Assembly (NCBI GenBank): GCA_020049415.1
Contig: JAIFKV010000081.1
Coordinates: 1-64,000, forward strand
Length of the DNA stretch: 64,000 bases
From: Betaproteobacteria bacterium
GTDB taxonomy: Bacteria; Pseudomonadota; Gammaproteobacteria; Burkholderiales; Thiobacillaceae
Direction: 5' to 3'
The notes beneath the pieces are model-generated. The model was not told the origin of the DNA. It made no database searches and worked only from the letters and a program-made list of their open reading frames with translations. Shown in pieces: positions 91 to 17,055 of the stretch. The translations under genes and the position numbers were made by a program. Positions within the stretch are counted from its first letter, which is position 1. Every line of letters begins with the position of its first letter.

Positions 91-108
91 TAAGATACTT
101 TGAGACAG

Positions 109-171
109 GTTGCCGAGAAGACCGGTGGGGAGTTCCCCGTTGTTGAAGAACAACGGTAACTCCCCGGCAAC
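109..171. repeat. long hairpin downstream of dapD
   Basis: Nested inverted repeat: outer arms 109-115 and 165-171 (GTTGCCG / CGGCAAC), inner arms 127-144 and 149-165, which pair almost completely around the four-base loop GAAG. It follows the dapD stop in the direction of transcription but has no T run beyond it, so it could stabilise or end the dapCD mRNA without being a classical intrinsic terminator. Confidence 0.5.
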
Positions 172-215
172 GTAAGTCATGCTCTCGCTGAACAAGCCGA
201 GATCAGTGCTTGTAA

Positions 216-1040: not shown

Positions 1041-1086
1041 GGTGATTTCCTTTAGGTTGTTTTTGAAACTTGTTGATAGATAACGA

Positions 1087-2286
1087 TTATTTCTTGATGA
1101 GATCCACAATCCGCTGCGCCGCTTCAACGCATTGTTCGAGCCCGTCTACCAGTGCAATCCGGATGAAGCCCTGACCTGGATTGATGCCTTTTGCATCCCG
1201 CGCCAGGTAGGAACCGGGCAGGACGGTGACGTGTTTTTCCTGGTAAAGCTGGCGGGCAAAGGCAGCGTCGCTGTTGGCAACTTCGCCACCGGGCACTTTC
1301 GCCCAAAGGTAAAAGGCGGCATCCGGCTCATCGAATTTGAGCACGTCCTGCAGCATCGGCATTACGGTGGCGAATTTTTCGCGGTACATGCGGCGGTTTT
1401 CATGCACGTGGCCTTCGTCTTTCCAGGCTGCGGCGGAGGCGGCTTGCACCGCCGGGTTCATCGCGCTGCCGTGGTAGGTGCGGTAGAGCAGGAATTGCTT
1501 GATCGCGTCGCTGTCGCCGGCAACAAAGCCGGAGCGCAGGCCTGGCACGTTGGAACGTTTCGACAGGCTGTTGAAGATCACCAGCCGTTCCTGGCCGCGG
1601 CCGAGTTGCTTGGCGGCGGTCAGTGCGCCGAGCGGCGGCTGGCCTTCATTGAAATAGATTTCGGAATAGCACTCGTCGGCGGCGACGATGAACTGATGCC
1701 GGTCGGCTAGTTCAAAAATCTCGCGCCAGTCATCCAGGTCAAGCACTTTGCCGGTGGGGTTGCCGGGCGAACAGACGTAGAACAGTTGCACGGTTTCCCA
1801 CAAATCTTCTGGTATCGCCGCCAGATCCATCTGGTAGCCGGTTTCCGGCAAGGTATTCAGGAAATAAGGCTTGGCGCCGGCGAGCAGCGCAGCGCCTTCA
1901 TATATCTGGTAGAAGGGGTTCGGCGAAAGCACACGTTTGACGTGTTTGGTCGGATCGATAATCGCCTGGGCGAAAGAAAACAGGGCTTCACGGCTGCCGT
2001 TCACCGGCAAAATCTGTGTCATCGGATCCAGGTCAACGTCATAGCGCATCAAGCACCAGTCGGCGATGGCCTCGCGTAGCGCTTCGGAACCCTGGGTCAC
2101 CGGATAATTCGACAGACCGAACAAATTGTCTGTCAGCGCGTCCTTGATGAACTCCGGAGTCGCATGCTTGGGTTCGCCAATCGACAGGTTGATCGCGGAA
2201 AATGCCGGATTCGGCGTCACGCCCGCGAACAATTCGCGCAGTTTCTGGAAGGGATAAGGTTGGAGTTGATTGAGGCGGGGATTCAT
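1087..2286 (-). CDS. dapC: N-succinyldiaminopimelate aminotransferase
   Basis: Fold-type I PLP aminotransferase (399 aa) that makes N-succinyl-LL-diaminopimelate from the keto acid formed after DapD. The PLP lysine is in the motif [15 protein letters not shown], typical of the beta-proteobacterial DapC group. Other family features are [10 protein letters not shown] (around residue 170) and DECYSEIYF. Start ATG at 2286 is preceded by AAGGACTCATCG. The adjacent dapD on the same strand supports the DapC assignment over other class I aminotransferases. A divergent transporter gene begins only 44 bp away. Confidence 0.93.
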
Positions 2287-2330
2287 CGATGAGTCCTTGC
2301 GCTTCCTGAATTTTTTGAGCCGCGAATTAT

Positions 2331-3218
2331 ATGCTTTCGTCATCAATACTGGCCCCACTCAGCTTGATCATTGCCGCCACAGTCTGGGGTCTGGTCTGGT
2401 ATCCCTATCGTTTACTGGAACAGGCCGGGATTTCCGGCAGTGTGGCTTCGCTGCTGACCTATCTGGTTGGTTTGCCATTGTTGCTGCTGCTGGTCGATCG
2501 ACGCCGCCTGTTCGAGCGATCCGAACGCGGCTTGCTGCTGGCACTGGCGCTCACCGCCGGCTGGACCAATCTGGCCTATGTACTAGCGGTGATTCACGGC
2601 GAGGTGATGCGGGTCTTGCTGTTGTTCTATCTGGCGCCGTTGTGGACGGTGTTTTTCGCGCATTTGCTGCTGGCCGAAAAAGCCGGTCGTATGGCGTACG
2701 CGGTGATTGGTTTGTCGTTCGCCGGCGCCTACGTCATGTTGTCCAAATCCGGTGGCTTGCCGCTGCCCACCAATGCCGCCGAATGGCTCGGGCTGTCGGC
2801 TGGAATCGGATTCGCGTTGACCAATGTGCTGGCCCGCAAAATCAGTTCGGCGCCGATAGCGTTGCGTTCCCTCGCGGTTTTTGCCGGCGTCGTGGTCTTG
2901 TCGACGCTCTATGCGTTGCATGAAGGCAGTTCACCACAGATCGTGTTCACACTCGACGTTCAGGGCTGGTGGCTGATCGTCTGCATTGCACTGGCGCTGC
3001 TGCTCGCCACCTTCACCGCGCAATACGGTCTCGCGCGCACGCCGGCCAACCGGGCCATCGTCATCTTGTTGAGCGAATTGGTGGTCGCCGCCATCGCCAG
3101 CCGATACCTGGCTGATGAAAAGATGGACCTGCAGGAATGGATCGGCGGCACGATGATCGTTGCGGCAACCCTGTTTTCCGGACAACTTGAGCAACAAACG
3201 GAGGAATCCCATGTTTGA
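2331..3218 (+). CDS. EamA/DMT-family membrane transporter
   Basis: A 295-aa protein of about ten hydrophobic segments in two repeated halves, as in drug/metabolite transporters of the EamA family. The first segment holds IIAATVWGLVWYPYRLLE, and the repeat starts near LGLSAGIGFALTNVLARK. Such proteins export small metabolites; the substrate cannot be read from sequence. No clear Shine-Dalgarno site is seen before ATG 2331. The gene overlaps the start of the following VOC gene by 8 bp, suggesting translational coupling. It is divergent from dapC with a 44-bp gap, so promoters must overlap coding ends. Confidence 0.85.
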   Translation: MLSSSILAPLSLIIAATVWGLVWYPYRLLEQAGISGSVASLLTYLVGLPLLLLLVDRRRLFERSERGLLLALALTAGWTNLAYVLAVIHGEVMRVLLLFYLAPLWTVFFAHLLLAEKAGRMAYAVIGLSFAGAYVMLSKSGGLPLPTNAAEWLGLSAGIGFALTNVLARKISSAPIALRSLAVFAGVVVLSTLYALHEGSSPQIVFTLDVQGWWLIVCIALALLLATFTAQYGLARTPANRAIVILLSELVVAAIASRYLADEKMDLQEWIGGTMIVAATLFSGQLEQQTEESHV

Positions 3219-3699
3219 AATCGTCAACCTGCTGCACGCCTCGCTAATGGTCGCCGACCTGGCGCAGTCACGCCGGTTTTATGAAGATGTTCTCGGCCTG
3301 AAGCCCAGTCCGGCTCGACCGGAAATGTCATTTTCCGGCATCTGGTACGACATCGGTTCAGCGCAGATTCACCTGATTTGCCTGCCGAACCCGGATCCAG
3401 TCAGCCAACGACCAGCGCATGGCGGACGCGACCGGCATACCGCGCTGGGCGTCAACAATTTCGACGCACTGATATCACGCCTGGATGCCGCCGGCTTGAC
3501 CTACAGCCGCCTTGGAATTGGTGGCGGTGGAATAGCAGGGCTGAGGCTTTCTTCGTTTGTTGAGCTTATCAATGGCGTTCATCGTGTTGAAGTTTCTTTC
3601 GATGTTTTGTGGAATGACAGAAATTATTCCTACTCCTGTTCCCTTTCATTGAGTCCTGCTCGCCGCGCTGGAAGAAGCGCGTACTTCAGCCGGCCATAG
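3211..3699 (+). CDS. VOC/glyoxalase-fold protein with aberrant C-terminus
   Basis: Starts with GGAGGAATCCC before ATG 3211 and reads as a vicinal-oxygen-chelate protein for about 100 residues: HASLMVADLAQSRRFYEDVLG (first strand-helix), a metal-site region DIGSAQIHLI, then RHTALGVNNFDALISRLDAAG. VOC proteins normally end with a strand rich in F and D/E holding the last metal ligand. Here, from about position 3520, the reading frame runs into AT-richer sequence (GIGGGGIAGLRLSSFVEL...) unlike the family. I infer that the 3' end was replaced or truncated, so the protein may not be functional. A small hairpin (3690-3703) overlaps the stop. It overlaps the upstream transporter by 8 bp. Confidence 0.6.
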   Translation: MFEIVNLLHASLMVADLAQSRRFYEDVLGLKPSPARPEMSFSGIWYDIGSAQIHLICLPNPDPVSQRPAHGGRDRHTALGVNNFDALISRLDAAGLTYSRLGIGGGGIAGLRLSSFVELINGVHRVEVSFDVLWNDRNYSYSCSLSLSPARRAGRSAYFSRP

Positions 3700-3792
3700 C
3701 CGGTTAATAAACAAACAAATAATTCTTGCCGAGGTGCGGCGGGTTATTCTGCGACGTGCCCAATTCGGTACGCTTGTATAAGGATGTCGCTG

Positions 3793-4536
3793 ATGGCGAA
3801 GGATTACCCCTACGGAAAGCTTGACCTGGGCGATGCGCACAATATCGCTGGCGGCTCAAATTCATTGCTGATGGCTTTGCAGGAACATGCCGAAGGCGGC
3901 ATGCAGGCAGACCCGGAAGTCGCAAAATTCGTCAGCAAAGGCGTTGATCTCGGCGATTCACTGCTCGATATGGCGCGACTGCTGGTCTCGCGCGGGGTCT
4001 TCTCGATGGAGCGCCATCTCAGCGAAATCCTGATATATAGCGCTGCGATCGCCGACGGTTGCGAGGTGTGCGCACTGACTCATATCGATGGCGCGATTCG
4101 CGCCAAAGCGCCGGAAGCGGTGATTGATACGGTGCAGGCGATTGCGCTGTACGTGCGCGCCCAAGCAGACGACGACACTTATTTGCTGTTCGACGCCTAC
4201 ACCAAGCATTGGCAACGCTTCGAGGAATGGCCGCATCTGACCGGCGGCCGTGTTTCCAACCTGAAGTTCTACAACCTGATCGCTTTGCTGATGAGTCTGG
4301 TCGTGCGCAAGCAGCGTCTGGTGCGCCTGCATACCTACGAATTGCTGACCAAAAGCGAAGTTACACCGGAAGAAATCCTGGAAGTCATCGGTATCGCCCA
4401 AGTCATGGGCGGCTTCCCGGCGCGTTGGGAAGCGGTGCATATCCGAGATGTGGCGTTCGAACTGCGTGAATGCGGCCTGCTGCCGGCGGCCTTCGTCGCG
4501 GTGCTCGACAGGATTCCTGCTCCGCCCAAGGGCTGA
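3793..4536 (+). CDS. AhpD-like / carboxymuconolactone-decarboxylase-family protein
   Basis: 247 aa, mostly helical. The segment HLSEILIYSAAIADGCEVCALTH holds the CxxC...H arrangement of AhpD-type alkylhydroperoxidase proteins, where the two cysteines cycle between thiol and disulfide. The second half (KFYNLIALLMSLVVRKQRL) looks like a degenerate repeat of the same fold. ATG 3793 is preferred to ATG 3784 because AAGGA at 3780-3784 is then correctly spaced. The substrate is unknown. It stands alone, convergent with the sensor gene that ends at 4884. Confidence 0.72.
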   Translation: MAKDYPYGKLDLGDAHNIAGGSNSLLMALQEHAEGGMQADPEVAKFVSKGVDLGDSLLDMARLLVSRGVFSMERHLSEILIYSAAIADGCEVCALTHIDGAIRAKAPEAVIDTVQAIALYVRAQADDDTYLLFDAYTKHWQRFEEWPHLTGGRVSNLKFYNLIALLMSLVVRKQRLVRLHTYELLTKSEVTPEEILEVIGIAQVMGGFPARWEAVHIRDVAFELRECGLLPAAFVAVLDRIPAPPKG

Positions 4537-4883
4537 GCGCGACACAAACAAAAACCGGCTCTGGCCTTTATCCTGGAATCCTCAGTTGAGATTGAATGTC
4601 GTGAAATTTCAATCGGTTGCGCAATCAAATCGCGCTGTCTACATGTCCAAGCTGGCTGGATTGCATATAAACCATGGTAGATCGGTTCCAGCAACACCGG
4701 CCCCTGCTGCGCCAGTTGCGGTTATCGTTGAAAAGCGATCCGCTCCAACCCGGTTCGAGCAAAACTACCTCTCGCCATGAACCACCGTCATTTCGGCATG
4801 AGATCGGCTGCAAGCCAGTCGATTTGCAAACGCCTCGCCAATAGAAATCAGATGACGAACTGGATTGCCCAGTGTATCGCCGG
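4537..4883. other. convergent intergenic region with one dispersed repeat
   Basis: 347 bases between the AhpD-like gene and the sensor gene. The only recognisable structure is the 55-bp dispersed repeat at 4567-4621. Small open frames here have no ribosome site or family-like sequence. Confidence 0.5.
4567..4621 (+). repeat. 55-bp dispersed repeat, copy 1
   Basis: Matches the complement of 22396-22450 in 52 of 55 positions. Inside, GATTGAA and TTCAATC form a small inverted repeat, so the unit can fold as a REP-like hairpin. Both copies are intergenic and in opposite orientation. Confidence 0.75.
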
Positions 4884-7800
4884 CTATTCGATCAAGTTGC
4901 GTTGGCAAACCAGCAAACGTTCGCTCAAGTTCTGTACTTCCTTCAATCTGGCAAGCGCTGCGGGTAGATCTTCCAGGTTCTGCAGCAATACGTTGGCCTG
5001 CTCATGCACTTGGTCATGCAGCGCCTCGACCTCTTGCAGATATTCTCGCCGCGACTCGGGAATGTTCTGGCGAACATTCTCCAACCATGCGCCAAAGCGG
5101 CATTTGCGGTGATCCAGTGGCGGCGGCGAGGTTCGTTCGCCGGCCAGGAAGTTGGCAATTTCCTTGAGCCAGGCGCGGTGCTGGATGCCGGCATGCAAGG
5201 CCGGCAAATCGGACGGTGCAAGTTGCCGCATGCTGTTCCAAGTGGCGGGGGGCCGCCATTGCGCAACCCAGGCCGGAATCTCGCCCGCTGGCATCGGGCG
5301 GGCAATGCCGTAGCCTTGCGCCAGATTGCAGCCAAGTTGCAACAAAATTTCGCCGTGCAGTTCGGTTTCCACGCCTTCGGCGATCACCTGCCGCTGAAAC
5401 GCCGCTGCCAGACCCTGTACGCCTTGCAGGATGGAGAGATCCTCCGGGTGGAAGAGCATGTCGCGGACAAAGCTTTGATCGATCTTCAATAGCTCAACCG
5501 GCAGATGCTTGAGATAGGTCAGCGAGGAATAGCCGGTGCCAAAATCGTCCAGCGCGAAGCTCACCCCCATCTCGGCGCAGGCGGTGATGACTTGCGAGAC
5601 ATGGTGAATGTCTTCCAATGCGCTGGTTTCCAGCACTTCAAGCTGAAAATTCCCGGTTTTTACCGACGAATGCGCGGCGAGCAGCTTCTGCAGACGAGTG
5701 ACAAAATCGGCCTGCTGCAGGTGCAGGGCGGAGATATTGACGCTGACCGGCAGTTCCAGCCCAAGTCGCTGCCAGGTTTCGATCTGCGTCAGTGCGGTAT
5801 CGACCACCCATTCGCCCAGTTCGATTTCGATAACATGCTTTTCGATGATCGGCAGGAATGCCGCCGGCATCAGCAAGCCACGCTCGGGATGTTGCCAGCG
5901 GATCAGCGCTTCGGCGCCGATCACCTCGCCGCTGCGCATGTTGACCTTCGGCTGGTAGTGCAACAGAAACTCTTTCTCGCCGAGTCCGCGCCGGATGTCT
6001 TCCAGGCTTTCGTGGTGGCAGCGCACATCCCGATCGAGATCAGCATCGAACAGGTAATAACGACTCTTGCCGGACAGCTTGGCTTGATACATGGCTTGAT
6101 CGGCCTGGCGCAACAACTGATCGGCTTCGATCGCCTCTGCTTGCGGATAGAACGTGATGCCGATGCTGCAGGAAACCTTCAACACGCGATCATCGTAGTG
6201 CAACGGTGTTGCACAGACCTCCAGCAGGCGCTGGATCTTCGGCAGGCAGTCGTTGAACAGGTGGAGTTCATCCAGCACGGCCACGAATTCATCGCCGCCC
6301 ATGCGGGCGATGGTGTCGCTTTCGCGCAACGCAGCGCGCATCCGCTCGGCGATCGCCATCAGCAATTCATCGCCGGCCTTGTGGCCATGATGGTCGTTGA
6401 CCTCCTTGAATCCGTCTAGATCGATCAGGGCGACAGCCAGCTTGAGTCCGCGCCGCCTCGCCTGGGCCATGGCGAAATGCAGCCGGTCGGCCAGCAATAC
6501 CCGGTTGGGCAAACCGGTCAACGCGTCGAAGTGCGCGATGTGTTCGAGCTGCATCTGGTGCGCCTTCTGCGCGGTGATGTCGAGGAACAGGCCGACGTAA
6601 TGCAGTGTTCGGCATTCCCGGTCACGCACGGCGCTGACGGTCAGGTGTTCGGGATAAATCTCGCCATTCTTGCGTCGGTTCCATATTTCGCCGGACCAAT
6701 GACCGCTTACCGCCAACGAGCGCCAGAGATCGGCGTAGAACTGCGGCGGCTGTCGTCCCGACTTCAGTATGCTGGCCTTGCTGCCGATGGCTTCATTGGA
6801 CGCATAGCCGGTAATGTCGGAGAACGCCTGGTTGACATCGACGATGATGCCGTCGGCATTGGTGATCATGATGCCCTCGCTGGCGCTGGTGAACACGTTC
6901 GCCGCCAATTGCAGCTTTTCCACCGCCTGCTTGCGCTCGGCGATGTCGTAACAGTGGCCGATGAAGCCGATGAAGTTTCCCGTGCTGCCATAACGTGGAC
7001 GACCCTGTTCCAGAATCCAGCGATAGTTGCCGTTGGCGTCCCGAAGCCGATATTCGATGTCAAACGGTTCATGCCGTTTGATGGCTTCGGCATGGGCGCT
7101 CCAGTAACGCTCGATGTCCTCGCTGAAAATGCCCTCCGCCCAACCATCGTCAATTTCCTGTTCCAGGCGGCGGCCGGTAAAGCGCAACCAGGTCTGATTG
7201 AAGAAGTCACGCCGATCGTCGATGCCGGATGTCCAGATCAGTGCTGAACCGCTATTCGCCAGCGTCCGGAAATGTTGTTCGCTTTCGCGCAAGGCCAGTT
7301 CTGCCTGCTGATGTTCGCGTCCGAGTCGTTGCAGTGCCGTATTGCGACTGGATAAACGCCATAGCTGCAATATCAGGACACCGGAAACCAGACCAATCAG
7401 GCTGATCCAGATGGCCTGCCAGCGAAACCACACCTCGCTCACCGTGAAAGGTGGCGCTTGATCAAACGGCGGCATGCGCAAGGCCCGCGCCAGATTTTCC
7501 ACCGGCAGGTAATCGCCCGGCGGTGCGAAACCGCCTATACCCGCCGCGCGCGCGGCCGGGTGGTATTCATCCAGCGCCATCAGGCTGCTGGCGATCTTGC
7601 GGACATTGCGACTGCCAACCTGTGGCAACGCGACAAACGCCCACTCCGGATAAAGCCGGGTCGAATGCGCATAGGGAAAGCCCGGTGTCCGCTGGGAATT
7701 GACGACCCGCAATTGGGTGGGATCGAGTTTTCCCTCGCGGGTCAGCTCTTCGATGATGCCGGTTCGGATGAAACCGAACTCCGTTTTACCCGCCAGCACT

Positions 7801-8357
7801 GTGGTCACCACCGCGTCGTGGTTGCCTGTCACCACAAGTTTGACCTGATGCGGCAAATGCACCCCGGCCTGCAGCAGTTCATAAGCCTGGGTCTGGTAGC
7901 CCCCCAGATACTTATTGCCCGGCACGGCGATGCTGCTGCCTTTCAAGTCGGCCAGCCTGGCTAACTCGCCGCCATTGGCGCGCGTAATGATCACACCGCC
8001 CAGGCTGCTGACCGCCTGGCCACTTTCCATGCTGACCAGCGTCGCCAGCGCACCCGTGAGGTTGTAGCGGCTGCGCAGCAGGATGTAATGACTCGGGTTG
8101 GTAAACACCAGATCGAGTTGGTTGCGTTGCAGCGCGAGTTCGATTTCATTCTGATCGAGCACGCGCAACTCAACACGCGTATCACCCAGTTGCGCGCCGA
8201 GATAGTCGGCCAACGGCTGATAGCGCTTTTGCAGTATTTCCTTTGGCCGATAGGCGAACACGCCCAGGATCAGACTATCGGCTGCCTGCGCGGTTGCTGC
8301 CGGCAAGGTTGCCGCCAGCAATGCAATCCACAGCAAGAACGCCTTGAAATGCTGCAC
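4884..8357 (-). CDS. PhnD-like binding domain fused to PAS-PAS-GGDEF-EAL-CZB
   Basis: 1157-aa single-pass sensor. Order by rough residue: signal peptide 1-25, a PhnD-type (phosphate/phosphonate-like) periplasmic binding domain 28-300 (e.g. LVFTNPSHYILL, AVPGNKYLGGYQTQ), membrane helix near 315-335, PAS near 350-470 and 480-595, GGDEF with intact MGGDEF and an inhibitory-site RESD five residues before it, EAL with EALIRWQHP, DDFGTGYSS and AEGVE, and a C-terminal CZB domain (QHRAW, HRKCRFGAWLE, HDQVHEQ). GGDEF makes and EAL hydrolyses cyclic-di-GMP; both look catalytically complete. CZB binds zinc in known examples. GTG 8357 was chosen because it opens a clean signal peptide and follows GGGGGT; the frame is open 14 codons upstream to a TTG. 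Which ligand is bound is unknown. Confidence 0.88.
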   Translation of the reverse strand: MQHFKAFLLWIALLAATLPAATAQAADSLILGVFAYRPKEILQKRYQPLADYLGAQLGDTRVELRVLDQNEIELALQRNQLDLVFTNPSHYILLRSRYNLTGALATLVSMESGQAVSSLGGVIITRANGGELARLADLKGSSIAVPGNKYLGGYQTQAYELLQAGVHLPHQVKLVVTGNHDAVVTTVLAGKTEFGFIRTGIIEELTREGKLDPTQLRVVNSQRTPGFPYAHSTRLYPEWAFVALPQVGSRNVRKIASSLMALDEYHPAARAAGIGGFAPPGDYLPVENLARALRMPPFDQAPPFTVSEVWFRWQAIWISLIGLVSGVLILQLWRLSSRNTALQRLGREHQQAELALRESEQHFRTLANSGSALIWTSGIDDRRDFFNQTWLRFTGRRLEQEIDDGWAEGIFSEDIERYWSAHAEAIKRHEPFDIEYRLRDANGNYRWILEQGRPRYGSTGNFIGFIGHCYDIAERKQAVEKLQLAANVFTSASEGIMITNADGIIVDVNQAFSDITGYASNEAIGSKASILKSGRQPPQFYADLWRSLAVSGHWSGEIWNRRKNGEIYPEHLTVSAVRDRECRTLHYVGLFLDITAQKAHQMQLEHIAHFDALTGLPNRVLLADRLHFAMAQARRRGLKLAVALIDLDGFKEVNDHHGHKAGDELLMAIAERMRAALRESDTIARMGGDEFVAVLDELHLFNDCLPKIQRLLEVCATPLHYDDRVLKVSCSIGITFYPQAEAIEADQLLRQADQAMYQAKLSGKSRYYLFDADLDRDVRCHHESLEDIRRGLGEKEFLLHYQPKVNMRSGEVIGAEALIRWQHPERGLLMPAAFLPIIEKHVIEIELGEWVVDTALTQIETWQRLGLELPVSVNISALHLQQADFVTRLQKLLAAHSSVKTGNFQLEVLETSALEDIHHVSQVITACAEMGVSFALDDFGTGYSSLTYLKHLPVELLKIDQSFVRDMLFHPEDLSILQGVQGLAAAFQRQVIAEGVETELHGEILLQLGCNLAQGYGIARPMPAGEIPAWVAQWRPPATWNSMRQLAPSDLPALHAGIQHRAWLKEIANFLAGERTSPPPLDHRKCRFGAWLENVRQNIPESRREYLQEVEALHDQVHEQANVLLQNLEDLPAALARLKEVQNLSERLLVCQRNLIE

Positions 8358-8833
8358 CCGAACACCCCCGCAAGCGTATCCACACAATGAGTCAAACAAT
8401 TCCGCCGCCAGCGCCGCTGGAATGTATCAATGACTTCGCGACGAAGATCTGCAAGGTTAACGGTTAATGCATGCTGCGGGGCAAGCCGATGGTTGTTCGT
8501 GATGACTATCCATGCTTTCTCTTGATCTGAATCAAAAAAATATGCTCAGGAATTCGTGGGCTAAAGCGGAGCACTCGACGCGAGTAGCAATCGAAGTACG
8601 CCAGCAAAGAGGCGAGGCCATCTGCGATTAAAAGGGGTTTGCAATCTTCTTTGCCCGGAAAATCTGGCCTGGAAACCGATAAATCAGGCAATGAAATGCA
8701 GGATGCCCACAAAGTTCTGAGGGGAATTGATATTCTACGCAGCCATTTGCGGTTGACCTTGAGGCAGTGTGATCAATCCATAATCCTGGCTTCCTGGGCA
8801 CGCAAAGCAAGTACCTTGATTGAGGAGTGGCCG
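8358..8833. promoter_or_regulatory. divergent control region of the cyclic-di-GMP locus
   Basis: 476 bases between two divergent sensor transcription units, without a convincing gene of its own. It contains the FNR-type site at 8522-8535. I could not fix -10/-35 elements with confidence on either strand. Confidence 0.55.
8522..8535. promoter_or_regulatory. FNR/Anr/Dnr-type operator
   Basis: TTGATCTGAATCAA is a perfect match to the FNR-family consensus TTGAT-N4-ATCAA. It lies 164 bases from the minus-strand sensor start and 298 bases from the plus-strand start, inside a divergent intergenic region. This suggests control by oxygen or nitric oxide through an FNR-family regulator; which arm is controlled cannot be told. 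Confidence 0.6.
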
Positions 8834-9808
8834 ATGCAAAAAGTTGAATCGATTGGCCTGGTGGGCTTATTGCTGCTGCTGACTGGGTTATTGATGACGA
8901 GCGGGTTGCAGGCCGCCGAGAAGCAGCTTGCCTATGTGGTTTCGGACGGGCGAATTCCCTTTTGGGACATCATGAAACGAGGTGTTGAGTCACGCGCTGA
9001 TGCGCTGGGTTACAAGGTGGTTGTTTACAGCGCGGAAAATAATGCCAAGCGCGAGTTGGAGTTGAGTGCTCAGGCCATCAAGGCAAAGGTCGATGGCATG
9101 GTCATTTCACCTACCAATTCCTCGGCCGCCGTCACCATTCTCAAGTTGGCGAATACCGCAGGTATCCCGGTGGTGATTTCGGATATCGGCACCGATGGCG
9201 GCGATTATGTCAGCTATATCGCTTCGGATAACCGGGAAGGTTCTTACCAGATCGGCAAGGTGCTGGCCAAAGCCATGCAGGCGCGCAAGTGGGACAAGGG
9301 CAGCGTCGGTATCATCGCCATTCCACAGAAGCGTACCAATGGCAGGGCGCGCACCGCCGGTTTCATGAAAGCGATGGATGAAGCGGGGATCAAGGGGGCG
9401 GGTATTCGTCAGCAAGTCACTTTTTCTCATCAAGAAACCTATGACTTTGCCAAGGCATTGATTGCCGCGCATCCAGACCTCAGGGCGCTCTGGTTGCAGG
9501 GGTCGGACCGCTATAAAGGCGCGCTCGACGCCATCGCAGATGCGGGTAAAAAAGATCAGGTTTTACTGATTTGCTTTGATGCGGAACCTGAGTTTCTACA
9601 GATGATTCCGCACGGCGAACTGGTCGGTGCAGCCATGCAGCAACCCTTCCTGATGGGCGAAAAGGCGGTCGAAACGCTGCATGCCCACCTCATGGGGAAG
9701 CCGGTTCAACAGCAGATATTGCTGCCGATTCTGCCGGTCTCGGCTGACAACATTGCCAACATGCTGCCGGTGATCCGTCGCAATGTTTTAGGCATAAAAG
9801 CCAAGTAG
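8834..9808 (+). CDS. RbsB-type periplasmic substrate-binding protein
   Basis: 324 aa with a signal peptide (LVGLLLLLTGLLMTSGLQA-A) and a Peripla_BP_4-type two-lobe fold: IPFWDIMKRGVESRADALG, KVDGMVISPTNSSAAV, IPVVISDIGTDGG, SDNREGSYQIGKVL and a late ICFDAEPEFLQMI. Such proteins bind sugars or similar small molecules in the periplasm. Start ATG 8834 follows GAGGAG. No ABC permease or ATPase gene is nearby; the next gene, 7 bp later, is a membrane sensor. I therefore infer that it delivers a ligand signal to that sensor rather than feeding a transporter. Confidence 0.87.
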   Translation: MQKVESIGLVGLLLLLTGLLMTSGLQAAEKQLAYVVSDGRIPFWDIMKRGVESRADALGYKVVVYSAENNAKRELELSAQAIKAKVDGMVISPTNSSAAVTILKLANTAGIPVVISDIGTDGGDYVSYIASDNREGSYQIGKVLAKAMQARKWDKGSVGIIAIPQKRTNGRARTAGFMKAMDEAGIKGAGIRQQVTFSHQETYDFAKALIAAHPDLRALWLQGSDRYKGALDAIADAGKKDQVLLICFDAEPEFLQMIPHGELVGAAMQQPFLMGEKAVETLHAHLMGKPVQQQILLPILPVSADNIANMLPVIRRNVLGIKAK

Positions 9809-9815
9809 AACTGAT

Positions 9816-12800
9816 TTGACCAATAAGGCCCGGGCGCAAAGGTCGCTCTATAAACTGCTGGCTGGGATCATCGTCAGCGTGGTGATCATTGTGCTCGGTT
9901 CGCACGCGGCATATCGCTATCTGTCGCAGCGGAACGAGCAGGTTGAGGATATGAAGCGGAATTCCGCTTTGAGCATTGCAACCCTGCAGAAAAACATTTC
10001 CACGCTCATCGAATCCTATGCCATCAACGAGTATGTCAATCTGATCAACACCGAAGTTGAGCAGCGGCATCATTTCGCCATCATCGTCAGTGATTACAAC
10101 ATGGGGAAGATCCTCGCCACGGAGGCGTACATCAGCGGCAAGATCCATGATGCTTCGGGCCAAATCATTGATTACAACCCGGATGACCCGCTTCATCGTC
10201 AATGGCTCGATACCTGTTTCTATACCGTTAGGGCGCCCATTACCACCGCATCGGGAGCGCTGCTGGGCCACATTGCGGTTTACGTTACCGATGCGCAGAT
10301 GCGCGAGGAACTCAACCGTATCCTGATGCAGAACCTGATCAGCAGCGCAATGATTGCGCTGCTGTTGATCGTCTTGATCCACATTGCGGTGCGACACCTG
10401 TTGGTCCGACCACTTTCGAAGATCGTCACTGTGATCGGCAAGACTGACGCTGATGGCATTCCCACCGCCCCTATCCCGAATCTGGCTTATGTGGAAATTT
10501 CCACCTTGACCAACACCATGAACACCATGGTCGAAGTGATCAAACGTTCGCGGAAACAGCTAAAGGATGAAAAGGATGCACTTCTGGTCGAGCATGGTCG
10601 GCTACAGCAAATAACGGCTGAACTTGCACTCAGCCGCGACCGCTTCGAGCAGTTGGCTGAAGCGTCGCCATCCGGTATTTGGGAAACAACGCCTGACGGC
10701 CTCAACACCTATGTCAGTCGTCAATGGTGCCAGATCACCGGCTTGTCCGCTGACGCAGCAGCGGGGCAGGGATGGGCCAGCGCATTGCATCCGGAGGATC
10801 GCGAGCGGGTGTTCCAGGAATGGACCAAACAGGCCGCTGCAGGCCGCAGTTATCGCGCCGAGTTTCGTTTTAAGCGACTGGATGGGAGCGTGGTTTGGGT
10901 GCTCAACACCGCCACTACCATCGATGGAGATTCTGGTGCGATCGAAAGCTGGGTCGGAACGATCACGGATATCTCGGAAGGCAAGCAGCAACAGGCGGAA
11001 ATCCTGCAGCAGCGTCTGCGGTTGCAGAACATCATCGAAGGCACGCGAGTGGGTACCTGGGAATGGAATGTACAAACCGGCGAGACCCATTTCAACGAGC
11101 GCTGGGCGGAAATTATCGGCTACAGATTGGAGGAACTCGCCCCAATCAATATCGCAACATGGATGCAGTTTGCTCATCCCGATGATCTCGCCAGTTCTTC
11201 AGCAAGACTTGAACAGCATTTCTCCGGCCAAAGCGGCCACTATGAATGCGAGGTGCGCATGCGCCACAAGGACGGCCATTGGGTCTGGGTTCTTGATCGC
11301 GGCATGGTTGTCAGTCGGTGCCCGCACGGCCAACCCGAATGGATGGCCGGCACGCATTGGGATATTACCGAACGCAAAAACAACGAAATCGCCCTGGCTG
11401 AACGCACCCAGGCGTTGGCTCGCGCAAACACCGAACTGGAGCAACTGGCTACCGTCTTCACGCATACGCGCGAAGGCATTGTCATTACCGACCCGCAAGG
11501 CGACATTGTCGATGTCAACGATGCCTTCTGCCGCATCACCGGTTACAGCCGCGACGAGGCCATCGGCCAGAATACACGGCTGCTCAAATCCGAACGCCAC
11601 GAACCCGAGTTCTACGTTGAACTATGGCGTGCTTTGAGCGAACAAGGCGACTGGTCCGGCGAGATCTGGAACCGGCGCAAGAACGGCGAAGAGTATGCCG
11701 AACTGCTGACCATCAGCGCCGTGCGTGATGCCGGAGGGTTGACGCGACACTACGTTGCGTTGTTCGCCGACATTACCGCACAGAAGGATCACCAGAGGCA
11801 GCTTGAACATATCGCAAATTACGATGCGCTGACCGGTTTGCCCAACCGATTGCTGTTGGCAGACCGCCTGCATCAAGCGATGACGCGGGCGAAACGGCGC
11901 AATGAGAGTCTGGCGTTAGCCTACCTTGACCTGGATGGTTTCAAGGCCATCAACGACAACCACGGTCACAACGCGGGCGATCATCTGCTTACCGTCATCG
12001 CCGAGCGGATGAAGCAATGCCTGCGCGAGAGCGACACCATCGCTCGCCTTGGCGGAGACGAATTCGTCGTCGTACTGGCAGATCTGGCAAACATCAAGAC
12101 CAGCGAGCCGTTCATCCTGCGGCTATTGGCTGCGGCATCGCAGCCGGTTCCCTACAAAGACGAGTTGCTGCATGTCTCGTCAAGCATCGGCATCGCTTTT
12201 TATTCGCCCGCTGACGATGCCAATGCCGACCTCTTGCTGCGCGAGGCTGATCAGGCCATGTACCAGGCCAAGCAGGCAGGCAAGAATCGTTTTCATGTCT
12301 TCGACTCCGAGCAGGACCGCGCGGTACGCGGCCACCACGAAAACATTGCACGTATCCGCCAGGCGCTGACCAACAAGGAGTTCGTCCTTCACTTTCAACC
12401 AAAGGTGAATATGCGCAGCGGCGCATTGATTGGCGTTGAAGCGTTGATCAGATGGCAGCATCCGGAACGCGGTCTGCTCTCACCCGGGTTATTCCTGCCC
12501 GAGATCGAAAATCACCCGCTCGGCATTGAACTCGGCGAATGGGTGATCGATACCGCGCTGGCCCAGATCGAGGCTTGGCAAGTTGATGGGTTTACGCTGT
12601 CGGTAAGCGTAAACATCGCCGGAAATCATCTACAGCAAGCCGGTTTTGTCGACAGTTTGCGCGATCTGTTGGCGCGCCATCCCTCTGTACGGCCCGATGC
12701 GCTTGAGTTGGAGGTGTTGGAAACAAGTGCGCTTGAAGATATCGCCCATGTTTCGGCAGTTATTGCCGAATGTGCAACGCTCGGCATTGACTTCGCCCTG

Positions 12801-13463
12801 GATGACTTTGGCACTGGTTATTCCTCGCTGACTTATCTCAAGCGTCTGCCGGCGCAGATATTGAAAATCGACCAGAGCTTCGTCCATGACATGCAAGATG
12901 ACCCTGAAGATCTGGCGATTCTCGAGGGCGTGCTCGGCCTGGCAATGGCTTTTCGTCGACGTGCCATTGCGGAAGGGGTAGAGACGATTTCTCATGGCGA
13001 AATGCTGCTCGACCTGGGCTGTGAATTGGCACAAGGCTACGGAATCGCCCGTCCGATGCCGGCGGCGGAAATACCCAAATGGAGCGCTATCTGGCAACCC
13101 GGCGTAACTTGGCTACACCGTTCGTCAGTGAGTCGCGACGATTTGCCGCTGTTGTTCGCGGCAGTAGAACATCGGGCCTGGATTTCGGCTGTAGCAGCGC
13201 ACCTGAAAAGCAATAGCGACGCGCCGATGCTGGATCGGCATGCCTGCCGCTTTGGCGCGTGGCTTGAAGACGAAGGCCGCGCTCGCTATGGCAACCACCC
13301 CGCTTTCCCACGCATCGAGGCGCTTCACCGGCAAGTTCATGAAAGAGTGCAGTCACTGTTGACTATGGCCATGAATGGTGGAAGCAAGGAAGCGCTGAAT
13401 CAACTGGGTGAGCTTTACCAACAACGGAATAGATTGCTAGAGCAGCTTAAACAGATTTGCTGA
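9816..13463 (+). CDS. membrane sensor: periplasmic domain-HAMP-3xPAS-GGDEF-EAL-CZB
   Basis: 1215 aa. A first membrane helix (about 12-32), a periplasmic sensor region (33-172), a second helix (173-192), HAMP and coiled coil (to about 265), three PAS domains (about 270-385, 400-515, 540-650), GGDEF (RLGGDEF near 747, with RESD inhibitory site), EAL (GVEALIRWQHP near 872; DDFGTGYSS, AEGVET) and a CZB zinc-binding domain (EHRAW near 1117, RHACRFGAWLE near 1143, HRQVHE). Both output domains appear intact. The only available start is TTG 9816, 7 bp after the binding-protein stop with no good ribosome site, which fits coupled translation. The last ~700 residues closely resemble the divergent sensor, so the two are likely ancient duplicates with different input heads. 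Confidence 0.88.
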   Translation: MTNKARAQRSLYKLLAGIIVSVVIIVLGSHAAYRYLSQRNEQVEDMKRNSALSIATLQKNISTLIESYAINEYVNLINTEVEQRHHFAIIVSDYNMGKILATEAYISGKIHDASGQIIDYNPDDPLHRQWLDTCFYTVRAPITTASGALLGHIAVYVTDAQMREELNRILMQNLISSAMIALLLIVLIHIAVRHLLVRPLSKIVTVIGKTDADGIPTAPIPNLAYVEISTLTNTMNTMVEVIKRSRKQLKDEKDALLVEHGRLQQITAELALSRDRFEQLAEASPSGIWETTPDGLNTYVSRQWCQITGLSADAAAGQGWASALHPEDRERVFQEWTKQAAAGRSYRAEFRFKRLDGSVVWVLNTATTIDGDSGAIESWVGTITDISEGKQQQAEILQQRLRLQNIIEGTRVGTWEWNVQTGETHFNERWAEIIGYRLEELAPINIATWMQFAHPDDLASSSARLEQHFSGQSGHYECEVRMRHKDGHWVWVLDRGMVVSRCPHGQPEWMAGTHWDITERKNNEIALAERTQALARANTELEQLATVFTHTREGIVITDPQGDIVDVNDAFCRITGYSRDEAIGQNTRLLKSERHEPEFYVELWRALSEQGDWSGEIWNRRKNGEEYAELLTISAVRDAGGLTRHYVALFADITAQKDHQRQLEHIANYDALTGLPNRLLLADRLHQAMTRAKRRNESLALAYLDLDGFKAINDNHGHNAGDHLLTVIAERMKQCLRESDTIARLGGDEFVVVLADLANIKTSEPFILRLLAAASQPVPYKDELLHVSSSIGIAFYSPADDANADLLLREADQAMYQAKQAGKNRFHVFDSEQDRAVRGHHENIARIRQALTNKEFVLHFQPKVNMRSGALIGVEALIRWQHPERGLLSPGLFLPEIENHPLGIELGEWVIDTALAQIEAWQVDGFTLSVSVNIAGNHLQQAGFVDSLRDLLARHPSVRPDALELEVLETSALEDIAHVSAVIAECATLGIDFALDDFGTGYSSLTYLKRLPAQILKIDQSFVHDMQDDPEDLAILEGVLGLAMAFRRRAIAEGVETISHGEMLLDLGCELAQGYGIARPMPAAEIPKWSAIWQPGVTWLHRSSVSRDDLPLLFAAVEHRAWISAVAAHLKSNSDAPMLDRHACRFGAWLEDEGRARYGNHPAFPRIEALHRQVHERVQSLLTMAMNGGSKEALNQLGELYQQRNRLLEQLKQIC

Positions 13464-13591: not shown

Positions 13592-15577
13592 TTATCCACC
13601 CACCAATTTTTCGGCGGATGCGCTCTTTGGATGCGGCGGAATGATGCCAAGCCGTTCTTTCAGCGGTTGAGAATCACCGCCAAACAGGTGGCGGTAAAAC
13701 ATGGCGTTGGCGAGTACTTTTTTGACGTACTCGCGGGTTTCGGAATAAGGAATGTTTTCAACGTAGATCGCGCCTTCCAGCGGCACCTCGGCCTGCCATC
13801 TGCGCGCGCGGCCGGGGCCGGCGTTATAGCCGGCGGTGGCGAGTACCGGCGATTTGCCGAGCGAGTTATAAATATGCTTCAGATAGTAAGTACCGAACTG
13901 AATGTTGGTTTCTGGTTTGGCGACAGTGGCGTGGGCGTTTTTGCCTAGTCCGAGCTGACGTGATATCCACTTGGCGGTGGCTGGCATGATCTGCATCAAT
14001 CCTTGCGCGCCGACGCTGGAACGGGCGAAATCGATGAAGCGCGATTCTTGCCGCATCAGGCCGTAAACCCAGGCTTCGTCTATCTCGTTTGCTCCCGCAT
14101 AAGCGTTGGCCAGATCTCGGTAAGGCGCGATATAGCGCAAATCGAAAGCATGGATTTCGCGTGTTCTTTCGGCAGTGGCGATCGCCCGGTCATACCAATT
14201 ATTGCGACGAGCCAGTTCGGCTGCAGCCAGCAGATCACGATCTTCCATGCCGCGCAGCGCCCACTCCCACTCGGCCATGGCGTTGCCGGCGTCACCGAGT
14301 TGGCGCAGCAGCAGGGCGCGACTCAGCCCGCTCCGGGCTTCGGCCATTTTCAGGTCGTCCGGGGTTACTTTGTAGTCTTCGGTTCGCGCTTCCAATTTGG
14401 CCGGCAACTCTTCCTCGGCGAGTAATCCGTAGTAATGAATTTCGCGCGATAGTTTGGCAAACAACATGTTGGCGGGATAAGCAGCATTCATGGCCTTCAG
14501 CGCACGGGCTTTCCAGTAGCGCCAGACCGCCTCGTTTTGTTGCGTTTCGGGCATCGCTTCGATGCTGCGATAGACCTCCAGCCATTTGCCGGCGCGCAAG
14601 GCGGTACGCGTTTGCCAGGCAGCCTGGAGTTCGCTGCCAACGCCACCGGCGCGCTGAAACCAGCCCAACGCACGGGCGTCGTGCAGGCGCGCGGCGTGCA
14701 TACCTATCTGCGCCCAGCCATAGCGCTGCTCTGCGGCGGAAAAGAAGGTGAAATGTTGTTCCCAGACCCGCGCGGCATCCTCCGGTGTTTTCTTTGCAAT
14801 TTGGGTCAGGGCATACAGGGCGGCTTCGCGTTGACCACGATTGGGCGGTTGCGCGGCGACTTCGGCGATGAAAGTTTCCGCCGCGCGGACAGCGCGGCTG
14901 AGTGCATCCGCCGACATGCGATCTTCATCCGGCAGGCGTGCATTCAATTCGCGGGCCAGGCGCAGATTGCCGTCATCCAGCGCCAGTCGCAGGCGCTCCA
15001 GTCGGTCTTCCAGGGTGAGCAGACCGCGCTCGGCCAGATTGTCGAATAGCGGTTCGCAACTCGAAGGCAGATCACGTGCGGCGCGCCAGAGTGCAATGCC
15101 GGTGCTGTCGGCCTGGGAGTCGCCGTGGCTTTGACGCGCCCGTAAATCAAAGCAGCGCAATTCCTGATCCGGTTTGACGATGGCCGCATAAACATGCTCA
15201 AACGCAGGCCAGTTGGCCTTCAAACCGAAGTTACGTGCGAGGTCGATACGCAGACGATTGGACAACGGAGAGTCGGCATATTGCTGAATGAATGCCTGTT
15301 GCTCGGTCTCGGGGGCTCGGTTTGCTTTGAGTTGCCAGAAACGGATGTAAGGCGTCAGCAGATGATCATCTGGAAACGTATCTGCGATCTTCTGCAAACG
15401 ATTGGAATTGCCCTTTTGAAAGGCTTCTCGTGCGTTCTGGTAATCAGAATTGACGGAAGCATGCGCGATGAAAGCGGTGAACGATAGAAGCAGGAGAAAG
15501 ACGCGCGGTAAGAAGCCAAAGATCACGAGTATTGAACAGGGGCGAGCCCCGTGCAGCCATTGCAGAAAGATGCGCAC
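13592..15577 (-). CDS. slt: soluble lytic murein transglycosylase (Slt70-like)
   Basis: Periplasmic enzyme cleaving peptidoglycan with formation of 1,6-anhydro-muropeptides. The 661-aa protein has an N-terminal hydrophobic export segment (VFLLLLSFTAFIAHA), a long alpha-superhelical region (about 50-470), and a C-terminal lysozyme-like domain. The catalytic Glu is in YGLMRQESRF, followed by GAQGLMQIMPATA and AGYNAGPGRARRW, as in Slt70. GTG 15577 is preceded by AAGGGTAAA; the start could also lie some residues further in. A family A MITE sits 51 bp upstream. Confidence 0.92.
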   Translation of the reverse strand: MRIFLQWLHGARPCSILVIFGFLPRVFLLLLSFTAFIAHASVNSDYQNAREAFQKGNSNRLQKIADTFPDDHLLTPYIRFWQLKANRAPETEQQAFIQQYADSPLSNRLRIDLARNFGLKANWPAFEHVYAAIVKPDQELRCFDLRARQSHGDSQADSTGIALWRAARDLPSSCEPLFDNLAERGLLTLEDRLERLRLALDDGNLRLARELNARLPDEDRMSADALSRAVRAAETFIAEVAAQPPNRGQREAALYALTQIAKKTPEDAARVWEQHFTFFSAAEQRYGWAQIGMHAARLHDARALGWFQRAGGVGSELQAAWQTRTALRAGKWLEVYRSIEAMPETQQNEAVWRYWKARALKAMNAAYPANMLFAKLSREIHYYGLLAEEELPAKLEARTEDYKVTPDDLKMAEARSGLSRALLLRQLGDAGNAMAEWEWALRGMEDRDLLAAAELARRNNWYDRAIATAERTREIHAFDLRYIAPYRDLANAYAGANEIDEAWVYGLMRQESRFIDFARSSVGAQGLMQIMPATAKWISRQLGLGKNAHATVAKPETNIQFGTYYLKHIYNSLGKSPVLATAGYNAGPGRARRWQAEVPLEGAIYVENIPYSETREYVKKVLANAMFYRHLFGGDSQPLKERLGIIPPHPKSASAEKLVGG

Positions 15578-15787: not shown

Positions 15788-16228
15788 TTAATCGCGGCGT
15801 TCATCGTCGCGCTGACGGCGGCCGCCTGGCCAGGCCGGAAGCTCCGGCCGGATTTCCTCGAAACGACGTTTTTCAAAACCAAAGCCAAAACGACTATCGG
15901 CGGGAGGATTGAGGTCTTTATTGCGGTTCGACTCGTTACCCCGACCGTTATCGCGCGATGTCGCGCCGGGAAAGGGCAAGCGGATGGCTTCTTGCGCCGG
16001 AGGCGGCAATTGCCGTAGACGATCCTGAAAGAACTGACGCATGCGAATACGCTCTTCCGGGCTGGCTTGTTCCCAGCGATCGCGCAACTCACGCCGCTCG
16101 TCTGCGCCGAGTTGGGCGATCTTGATCGGGAGACGCACCTGGCTGAATATCGGGCTATCGGCTTGATCCGCCAGAGCGGGTAAAGTCGACAGTGTCAGCA
16201 GCAGGGCAATCAACAGGGTGCGACGCAT
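15788..16228 (-). CDS. small periplasmic DUF3106-like protein
   Basis: 146 aa with a signal peptide (RRTLLIALLLTLSTLPALA-D) and a short helical region ELRDRWEQASPEERIRMRQFF that resembles DUF3106 proteins, followed by a charged, Arg/Pro-rich tail. No catalytic motif is visible. Start ATG 16228 follows AAAGGAGAAAA. The stop codon coincides with the TTA target duplication of the adjoining MITE. It is divergent from the response-regulator gene, so it may be a target or accessory of that two-component system; this is inference from position only. Confidence 0.65.
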   Translation of the reverse strand: MRRTLLIALLLTLSTLPALADQADSPIFSQVRLPIKIAQLGADERRELRDRWEQASPEERIRMRQFFQDRLRQLPPPAQEAIRLPFPGATSRDNGRGNESNRNKDLNPPADSRFGFGFEKRRFEEIRPELPAWPGGRRQRDDERRD

Positions 16229-16299
16229 TTTTTCTCCTTTCCATGTCGCTGATGATAGGCGGCGGGGGTAACAGCGTGGTTTCCGGCGCTGGATTATTT

Positions 16300-16314
16300 G
16301 TAACAAAGTGTTAC
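16300..16314. promoter_or_regulatory. small palindrome before the response regulator
   Basis: GTAACA-AAG-TGTTAC, perfect 6-bp arms, immediately upstream of the GGAGG ribosome site of the regulator and within the divergent intergenic region. It could be an operator or an mRNA hairpin near the start site. Confidence 0.3.
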
Positions 16315-16326
16315 GGAGGCATAGTT

Positions 16327-17055
16327 TTGAACCACAGTAATTCCTCAAATGAAAATCTCAACTTGCTGATTGTCGATGATGATGCCGGTATTCGCGATTT
16401 GCTGGCCGATTACCTGAGCAAACAGGGCATGCGGGTGAGCACCGCGCGAGATGGCAAGGAAATGGATGAGCGGTTGGCGATTCTGTATCCAGATTTGATT
16501 GTCATGGATTTGATGATGCCGGGTGAAGATGGTCTCAGCCTTACCCGGCGCGTGAAAGCGGCGCGTGATGTGCCGGTGATCATGCTGTCGGCGCGTGGCG
16601 AGGACATCGACCGCATTGTCGGCCTGGAAGTCGGTGCGGATGATTACCTGCCGAAGCCATTTAATCCGCGTGAACTTCTCGCCCGTATTCGCGCGGTGTT
16701 GCGCCGCGGGCATGCAGCCAACGCCGGCGCCGATGCCAGCGAAATCATGCGCTTCGGCCCGTTCGGACTCGATCTGGCAGCGCAGGCGCTGTCGCGTGAC
16801 GGTGTCGAGATTCCACTCTCGCAAGCCGAGTTCACCTTGCTCAAATTGTTCGTTGAACGACCTAACCGCGCGCTTTCGCGTGATCAGATCATGGACAGTT
16901 TAAAAGGCTACGAGCGCGATCCATTCGACCGCTCAATCGATGTTCGGGTCACTCGGCTGCGCAAGAAACTGGAGGACGATCCAGCCAATCCGGTGTACAT
17001 CCGCACTGTCTGGGGTCAGGGTTATCTGTTCTCGCCGAAGGGAAAATCGGTTTGA
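16327..17055 (+). CDS. OmpR-family response regulator
   Basis: 242 aa: receiver domain (1-125) with acidic pocket LLIVDDDAG, phospho-Asp in PDLIVMDLMMPGEDG, and the conserved Lys in DDYLPKPFNP; then a winged-helix Trans_reg_C domain (about 140-240) with VRVTRLRKKLEDDPANP and the closing VWGQGYLF. It binds DNA when phosphorylated by the adjacent kinase. TTG 16327 is chosen because GGAGG (16315-16319) sits 7 bp upstream and the chain starts a few residues before the receiver strand. Its stop overlaps the kinase start (TTGA). It resembles the OmpR group most, but the symbol is not assigned because regulon context is lacking. Confidence 0.9.
   Translation: MNHSNSSNENLNLLIVDDDAGIRDLLADYLSKQGMRVSTARDGKEMDERLAILYPDLIVMDLMMPGEDGLSLTRRVKAARDVPVIMLSARGEDIDRIVGLEVGADDYLPKPFNPRELLARIRAVLRRGHAANAGADASEIMRFGPFGLDLAAQALSRDGVEIPLSQAEFTLLKLFVERPNRALSRDQIMDSLKGYERDPFDRSIDVRVTRLRKKLEDDPANPVYIRTVWGQGYLFSPKGKSV

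Follow-up and report, generated by a model that had tools for sequence, protein, structure and literature searches.

A periplasmic binding protein and the head of a membrane GGDEF-EAL-CZB protein as a candidate exchangeable input cassette

In several bacterial signaling systems, including NspS-MbaA, LuxP-LuxQ, TorT-TorS, and XylFII-LytS, a periplasmic binding protein works together with a membrane receptor. The last three of these feed kinases: LuxP, for example, signals through the membrane sensor LuxQ, which is a kinase only. Here we describe three genes from a 64,000-nucleotide stretch of DNA (the window) at the start of contig JAIFKV010000081.1, from a member of the Thiobacillaceae. Gene B is predicted to encode a periplasmic binding protein and gene C, just downstream, a membrane protein that could both make and break cyclic di-GMP (c-di-GMP). 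Gene A is divergently transcribed from them and is predicted to encode another protein of the latter kind. A first-pass annotation of the window had treated A and C as a single divergent locus. We propose instead that B and the N-terminal part of C are probably an input cassette, which is joined to various outputs in many bacteria, and that A looks like a separate system.

Linkage of gene B to the head of gene C

Gene B (8834-9808, + strand) encodes a protein of 324 amino acids from the Pfam family Peripla_BP_4 (PF13407, E = 4.5e-48). The likely start codon is the ATG at 8834, which is preceded by GAGGAG at 8822-8827, and not the TTG at 8639 where the frame opens. We read the hydrophobic segment at the N terminus as a probable signal peptide. 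Gene C (9816-13463, + strand) encodes a protein of 1,215 amino acids. It has two predicted transmembrane (TM) segments (amino acids 8-34 and 168-201, from hydrophobicity) around a Cache/PAS-like periplasmic domain, then a HAMP-like region, three PAS_3 stretches, and GGDEF (11814-12290, E = 1.5e-49), EAL (12351-13055, E = 8.8e-68), and CZB domains (13170-13355, E = 3.9e-12, 46.8 bits versus a cut-off of 29.4). (CZB is a zinc-binding domain.) Because the Pfam domain calls for A, B, and C all exceed the curated cut-offs, these matches are not due to chance. We will refer to amino acids 1-262 of C (9816-10601) as its head.

Among the 117 genomes of the family, the head is present at full length only in the window's own genome; nine of the other 116 match it weakly and in part (E = 4e-7 to 6e-4). 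Outside this set, B is found with a kinase-type receptor in two Dechloromonas bins (loci L170 and L204) and with a GGDEF-EAL receptor in a Sulfuritalea bin (L171). A search for the head across the order (399 genomes) and the class (369 genomes) identified five strong full-length relatives (32-60% identity, E = 3e-43 or better), and all five have a homolog of B (59-76% identical) directly upstream. Their outputs vary: a kinase with a REC-GAF-PAS-GGDEF-EAL neighbor, a kinase-REC protein, a kinase with a REC-GGDEF neighbor, and two PAS-GGDEF-EAL proteins.

We also scanned 84,980 species genomes for B itself. The scan used patterns from six B sequences, all of which were first seen beside a C-type head, and it may miss divergent relatives of B; the head was not used. 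It yielded 78 loci, and the five strong relatives of the head are among them. According to a hidden Markov model (HMM) of the head, a C-type receptor adjoins B in 75 of the 78 loci. In 74 of these the receptor is directly downstream, and its head starts -7 to +119 nucleotides from where the B frame ends; in the other (L218) it is directly upstream. In two of the three loci that remain, B is at the end of a contig; the third is L245, which we return to below. This is the arrangement of a binding protein and its receptor: B adjoins a protein with a periplasmic domain, and the relatives keep it so. The first-pass assignment of a sugar-type binding protein, here of the RbsB fold, to gene C was sound. 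The loci span Gamma-, Beta-, Alpha-, and Zetaproteobacteria, Magnetococcales, and Campylobacterota, and in single Lentisphaeria and Desulfocapsa bins.

The outputs of the 75 receptors are mostly of two types: GGDEF, with or without EAL, in 37 and histidine kinase (HK) in 33, with five left unassigned. On the GGDEF side there are 24 GGDEF-EAL proteins (and two more that are cut by the contig), three GGDEF-EAL-CZB proteins (L173, L174, and L197), and eight with GGDEF alone; the kinases divide into 19 HK and 14 HK-REC proteins. (These labels are from small custom HMMs that were built on Pfam-annotated segments, not from Pfam itself.) In a quick tree of the heads, with 74 rows, the output must have changed between HK and GGDEF at least 10-11 times, and 5-6 of these changes are forced by starred branches. 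(For the tree, L209 and L237 were labeled as kinases by hand, as the kinase domain is in the next open reading frame (ORF), and L195 and L239 were too short to be used.)

Distances between heads also follow those between B proteins more closely than those between output domains of the receptors. Across the GGDEF members (n = 36), the correlation between B and head was r = 0.75, versus r = 0.55 between the head and its own GGDEF domain, and the former was larger in 99.4% of bootstraps. The corresponding values for the HK members (n = 33) were 0.67 and 0.52 (larger in 95.2% of bootstraps). Because these distances go together and the linkage is conserved, the comparison marks the gene pair of B and head, and not the receptor protein, as the likely unit of inheritance.

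The Sulfuritalea locus may hold a close counterpart of gene C, because it shares 58% identity with gene C over the PAS-GGDEF-EAL part and because the sequence is cut inside an apparent CZB start (with Leu at the first ligand position). A careful tree joins it weakly to gene C (support 19/18), and the head tree places it with kinase-type heads. We considered whether the CZB domain had joined the cassette repeatedly. In a quick tree, gene C's CZB module is far from those of L173, L174, and L197, yet a grouping of these with gene C's is not rejected (p = 0.2), so we make no firm claim. We also considered whether B and C are naturally fused in L198, and set this aside: B and the head are in different frames there, and the long ORF is an upstream open frame.

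A few loci have additional genes of these types. L206 (positions 1-6500, from a Helicobacteraceae) has two B-type genes back to back, with a GGDEF-EAL gene after one (- strand) and a head-GGDEF-EAL receptor after the other (+ strand), as if the system were present twice, with the two copies facing each other. In L188 (643-4257, Arcobacteraceae), two successive B-type genes are followed by one kinase-type receptor. In L167 (3281-5389, Gallionella), an NMT1/THI5-like binding domain is fused to PAS-GGDEF directly upstream of a B-C type pair.

Predicted structures, proposed mechanism, and alternatives

The AlphaFold model of B has a predicted local distance difference test score (pLDDT) of 93.5 and is based on an alignment of 66 binding proteins. 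(L186 and L244 were left out because the B gene is split into pieces.) As modeled, the fold of B is most like those of ribose-binding proteins (Z about 30), TorT in the complex with TorS (Z = 29.2), and XylFII (Z = 28.7). B does not reach the NCBIfam equivalog cut-off for RbsB (134.5 bits versus 337) or those of two TorT models (17.4 versus 310 bits and 31.1 versus 200 bits).

We used the alignment to map onto B the residues that we take to contact ribose in E. coli RbsB. The equivalents of D89, R141, F214, D215, and Q235 are invariant in all 66 B sequences, and the pocket positions of B itself include D117, R173, D249, and Q269, which are each kept in 66/66. In contrast, five other contacts are replaced: N13 by Ile (65/66), F16 by Trp (66/66), N64 by Ser (66/66), R90 by Ile (63/66, otherwise Val), and N190 by Gly (65/66). 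With these five positions altered in nearly every sequence, the predicted site still resembles a sugar site in its polar core but is not the site of ribose. The sugar-like ligand of the first-pass annotation is thus reasonable for a protein with the RbsB fold, as long as plain ribose is not meant. We found no match to LuxS in the host genome, which is 84% complete, and autoinducer 2 (AI-2) as the ligand of B is neither supported nor excluded.

The AlphaFold model of the head (pLDDT 94.4) is based on 68 rows, namely the window's head and 67 of the 75 that were found. (L181, L182, L195, L200, L232, L235, L238, and L239 were left out as near-copies, truncated, or very divergent.) It has one Cache/PAS-like domain between two TM helices and then a HAMP-like helix; in a relative (L168), Pfam's HAMP model matches at this position. 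The best match to the modeled fold is an integrative model of WalK (Z = 13.8, root mean square deviation (rmsd) 3.3 over 236 residues). Many Cache/PAS sensor domains match the model at Z = 9-12; CitA (Z = 9.6, rmsd 2.4, 98 residues) is one of these, and the periplasmic domain of a LapD-type protein (Z = 10.8, rmsd 3.0, 118 residues) is another. LuxQ is not among the listed fold matches of the head; the two may still be related.

The enzyme motifs in the cytoplasmic part of C are intact, and so are those of A. In both proteins, RESD, the inhibitory site, lies 5 residues ahead of GGDEF, and EALIRW, DDFGTGYSS, and EGVET follow. Given the functions that we take these motifs to have, A and C are both predicted to be bifunctional GGDEF-EAL proteins of c-di-GMP metabolism. 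The first-pass annotation had described the GGDEF and EAL motifs of A and C as complete, and a pattern search and Pfam agree with it.

We think it likely that B and C form a two-gene periplasmic receptor, in which B and the head are an exchangeable input cassette. B would be a secreted RbsB-type sensor for a small ligand that is probably sugar-, polyol-, or furanose-like. Ligand-loaded B would dock on the periplasmic part of C, a single Cache/PAS-like domain, and docking would shift the helix register through the second TM segment, the HAMP-like segment, and the three PAS domains. C would then move between making c-di-GMP (with GGDEF) and breaking it (with EAL), with the direction of the response presumed. 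By analogy to E. coli DgcZ, the C-terminal CZB domain may add a cytoplasmic input from zinc or oxidants. In gene C, then, the cassette would sit on a PAS-GGDEF-EAL-CZB module that the host has in many copies. This proposal builds on what we observed of the domains, the conserved linkage, the alternative outputs, and the joint distances of B and head. In addition, B is more conserved than the head (mean column identity of 59% versus 42%), as one shared ligand would predict.

Several points weigh against this proposal. First, conserved linkage and joint distances are evidence of co-inheritance, not of docking. Second, the HK members are a less telling set, as their correlation between B and output (r = 0.60) is nearly as high as that between B and head and the intervals are wide. 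Third, the order and class also yielded weaker matches to the head (E = 4.7e-9 or worse, 18-35% identity), some of which extend over most of it, and the five-of-five count of B neighbors covers the strong relatives only. Fourth, L245, where B is truncated at the edge of the contig, has no head gene in the 6 kb downstream. Fifth, fold matches of the head with Z under about 13 may partly reflect its long helices. Sixth, the genes near B were clustered and not annotated singly, so transporter genes that are present in few loci would escape notice. Finally, an RbsC-type permease (named by reading) is encoded next to an ABC (ATP-binding cassette) ATPase on another contig of the host, so B might have a double role and take part in transport as well.

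The main alternative for gene C itself is that it is chiefly a zinc- or oxidant-controlled enzyme, with the periplasmic cassette as a minor or decayed input. As the first-pass annotation had stated, both A and C end in CZB domains: besides the Pfam matches, all four of the zinc ligands (His, Cys, His, and His) are present in the alignment. Both proteins also have a Trp three residues past the first His, which has been described for cyclase-type CZBs (PMC8262984). Control of a diguanylate cyclase by CZB is established for E. coli DgcZ, which responds to zinc and oxidants (PMC8262984, PMC8846402), and "EAL-containing diguanylate cyclases" with CZB are already a listed architecture (PMC8262984). 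The CZB domains of the host are mostly intact too, as 19 of 23 keep all four ligands according to our reading of the alignment. We nevertheless consider this alternative unlikely, given that B is intact and strongly conserved, down to the four invariant pocket residues listed above. Furthermore, our custom HMM finds a clear CZB in just 3 of the 75 cassette receptors (L171 being cut where a CZB would begin), while the others keep B and the head.

The host (G000) is rich in CZB domains. Its draft genome of 3.7 Mb, in 228 contigs, has 23 matches to CZB, 21 of them above the Pfam cut-off, which is the highest count among the 23 genomes of the genus that we searched (the others have 1-14). Fourteen proteins, including A and C, have GGDEF, EAL, and CZB in this order, and their front parts include CHASE, MHYT, HAMP, response-regulator, PhnD-like, and multi-PAS regions. 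The remainder are one EAL-CZB-REC-GGDEF protein, two short EAL-CZB frames, two CZB-GGDEF proteins, one CZB alone, and three CZB chemoreceptors. (The architectures are from Pfam for 20 proteins and the two window proteins, and from BLAST for the last one, L125.) The four CZB domains that have lost at least one zinc ligand, according to our reading of the alignment, are at loci L008, L020, L022, and L023. The two EAL-CZB frames (L034:569-1432 and L040:9253-10287) begin inside the EAL domain and are possibly broken paralogs or assembly errors. The chemoreceptors (L024:7709-8824, L025:6854-7972, and L026:6952-8400) are found alongside the 14 GGDEF-EAL-CZB proteins. In contrast, a passage in PMC8262984 states that species seem to hold either CZB chemoreceptors or CZB cyclases, not both.

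Another alternative is that B serves a monosaccharide ABC transporter as its binding protein, and that C only reports the state of transport or simply adjoins B. B is indeed closest to ribose-binding proteins, and contig C210 ends in the host's RbsC-type permease and ABC ATPase, with no binding protein that we could see within 2.6 kb. However, the neighbors of B in the window are A and C. When we clustered the 677 neighboring ORFs from the 78 loci, the only families in more than 6 loci were B itself (75), the receptor (69), and a REC-kinase-REC protein (10); small families were not annotated. Because no further family recurs in this way, B seems to act without a transporter. The changed contact positions (which rest on our presumed list of RbsB contacts) also argue against this alternative, which we view as improbable.

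Returning to the two-gene receptor, its ligand might be the same across the family. More tentatively, B could be a transport-free receptor for one conserved, furanose-type diffusible signal that is common to bacteria of redox gradients, with each lineage adding its own output, either a kinase or c-di-GMP. (By these bacteria we mean sulfur and iron oxidizers, magnetotactic bacteria, marine gammaproteobacteria, and relatives of Arcobacter.) We consider a single signal possible but doubtful; if true, a single ligand assay could reveal a habitat cue or a means of communication across phyla.

Gene A and the surroundings of the locus

Gene A (4884-8399, - strand) encodes 1,171 amino acids as read, with an uncertain start. 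From the N terminus, it has a PhnD-like periplasmic head, a single TM segment (amino acids 328-350, from hydrophobicity), two PAS stretches, and GGDEF (6063-6536, E = 1.5e-45), EAL (5295-6002, E = 3.5e-66), and CZB domains (4992-5180, E = 3.6e-11, 43.7 bits versus a cut-off of 29.4). The head (7518-8264, amino acids 46-294) matches Phosphonate-bd (PF12974, E = 2.3e-46, 158.6 bits versus a cut-off of 27). This agrees with the PhnD-type head that had been proposed from the sequence, and Pfam matched all of the domains that the first-pass annotation had named (PF12974, GGDEF, EAL, and CZB). Residues 389-1163 of A align to residues 415-1208 of C with 54% identity over 805 columns. The two proteins do have PAS-GGDEF-EAL-CZB in the same order, as had been noted, but they do not match from end to end, since the number of PAS domains differs (two in A, three in C).

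The ligand of A had been suggested to be phosphonate- or phosphate-like. In PtxB, the oxygens on the phosphorus are held by a Ser-Thr-Ser motif (PMC5700983). In all three of our alignments, which are remote and pairwise only, this motif aligns with Tyr164-Leu165-Gly166 of A, although the ligand His of PtxB is retained. Thus, the head of A belongs to PF12974 and lacks the full set of PhnD/PtxB residues (Ser-Thr-Ser and His). Among the best 25 of 45 NCBIfam rows, the only model that covers this region is that of the tetrathionate sensor TtrS, which matches the head and linker (amino acids 39-377) at 110.7 bits versus a cut-off of 750. Because Ser-Thr-Ser is replaced, and because the NCBIfam match in this region is to TtrS and below its cut-off, a phosphorus ligand for A is not supported.

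Relatives of A are found without B or C. Orthologs of A are 81-86% identical in genome G018, 67-68% in G030, and 64-65% in G002, and they form one starred clade with A in a tree of the modules. We saw no relatives of B or of the head of C near these orthologs, in the 5.3 kb (G018), 18.0 kb (G030), and 11.8 kb (G002) that were examined. Conversely, the A-type head has no match among the ORFs of the examined DNA at the 78 B-family loci. In six relatives that we compared, out of 22 other genomes of the genus, A, B, and C were all absent from beside the gene that lies to the right of C in the window. The modules of A and C are not sisters either (AU test on a quick tree, p = 1.5e-6; AU is short for approximately unbiased), and on this basis we reject a tandem-inverted duplication as their origin.

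The first-pass annotation had proposed that A and B-C form one divergent locus that combines inputs from a phosphonate- or phosphate-like ligand, from a sugar-like ligand, and from zinc in one c-di-GMP output. It is true that A and C are adjacent and divergent, that their cytoplasmic halves are similar, and that both have CZB domains. Also, the sequence upstream of B extends for 3 kb or more in 58 B-family loci, and a few of these carry an opposite-strand gene with one or both enzyme domains there: GGDEF-EAL in L206 and L217, GGDEF in L224, and EAL in L246. But since the pairing is not conserved in the genomes and loci searched, the two modules are not sisters, and the host has many copies of the CZB module, an integrating locus is very improbable, and as a conserved unit it is largely refuted. 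The annotation had itself named the lack of such neighbors in relatives as evidence that would count against it. Gene A instead looks like a separate member of the set of GGDEF-EAL-CZB paralogs, with a fused PhnD-fold head, whose nearness to B and C seems incidental.

A consensus promoter scan found nothing promoter-like within the gap between A and B (8400-8833), and the totals of the scan were at chance level. No RNA family, such as a riboswitch, reached its gathering score in the window. To the right of C, we read the gene at 13592-15577 as a lytic transglycosylase. A response regulator and kinase pair (15788-18365, OmpR/EnvZ type by reading) adjoins it, on the side opposite from the variable island of A, B, and C, and this pair is kept in 4 of the 6 relatives compared (L258, L259, L261, and L262).

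Comparison with known systems

Among the listed titles and abstract openings of open PubMed Central (PMC) papers, we found no description of an RbsB-type family with one conserved head on either kinases or c-di-GMP enzymes. Similarly, for PhnD with GGDEF, EAL, and c-di-GMP, nothing beyond work on riboswitches surfaced in open PMC papers. According to the relevant part of a review, only SBP_bac_3, of the 27 Pfam families in the clan of periplasmic binding proteins, has been studied in c-di-GMP networks (PMC8846402). Most inputs of this type to c-di-GMP proteins are thus unstudied. A sensor of the B-C type is wired to differing outputs in many bacteria, which makes its signal worth finding. Once the ligand of a single member is found, dozens of receptors in sulfur, iron, and marine bacteria that have been little studied could probably be annotated. 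The natural kinase and GGDEF variants also offer ready material for asking how a binding protein can control distinct outputs.

For the separate gene A, the nearest parallels are TtrS-type sensors with PF12974 heads. The head and linker of A match the TtrS model, but the score is far below its cut-off, and the output of A is GGDEF-EAL-CZB. As for the cytoplasmic modules, A and C share the four CZB ligands and the cyclase-type Trp with E. coli DgcZ and other GGDEF-EAL-CZB proteins. They differ in having periplasmic heads, with the CZB domain at the C terminus, after EAL.

B, like LuxP, is a Peripla_BP_4 protein (PMC12268683). LuxP is not among the best 60 of the 78 solved structures that match the profile of B. 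TorT has the same broad fold and feeds a membrane sensor as well, but B is below the cut-offs of the TorT models, and the head of C has one Cache-like domain, while the sensor part of TorS is, as we understand it, helical. In XylFII-LytS, too, an RbsB/XylF-type binding protein is paired with a membrane sensor. Both the profile of B (E = 2.4e-20) and its modeled fold match XylFII (chain 5xsd), and we take the output of this system to be a kinase only. The four solved chains that match the profile of the head align only with its end, that is, with the second TM segment and the HAMP-like region (E = 0.003-0.0065).

In its logic, the proposed B-C receptor is closest to NspS-MbaA, the polyamine receptor of Vibrio cholerae, which is described in outline as a separate periplasmic binding protein that controls a membrane c-di-GMP protein. 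Presumably, MbaA is a GGDEF-EAL protein and NspS has the PotD fold. B-C differs from it in that B is of the RbsB type, histidine kinases are also among the outputs of the B-C family, and a CZB domain is present in gene C.

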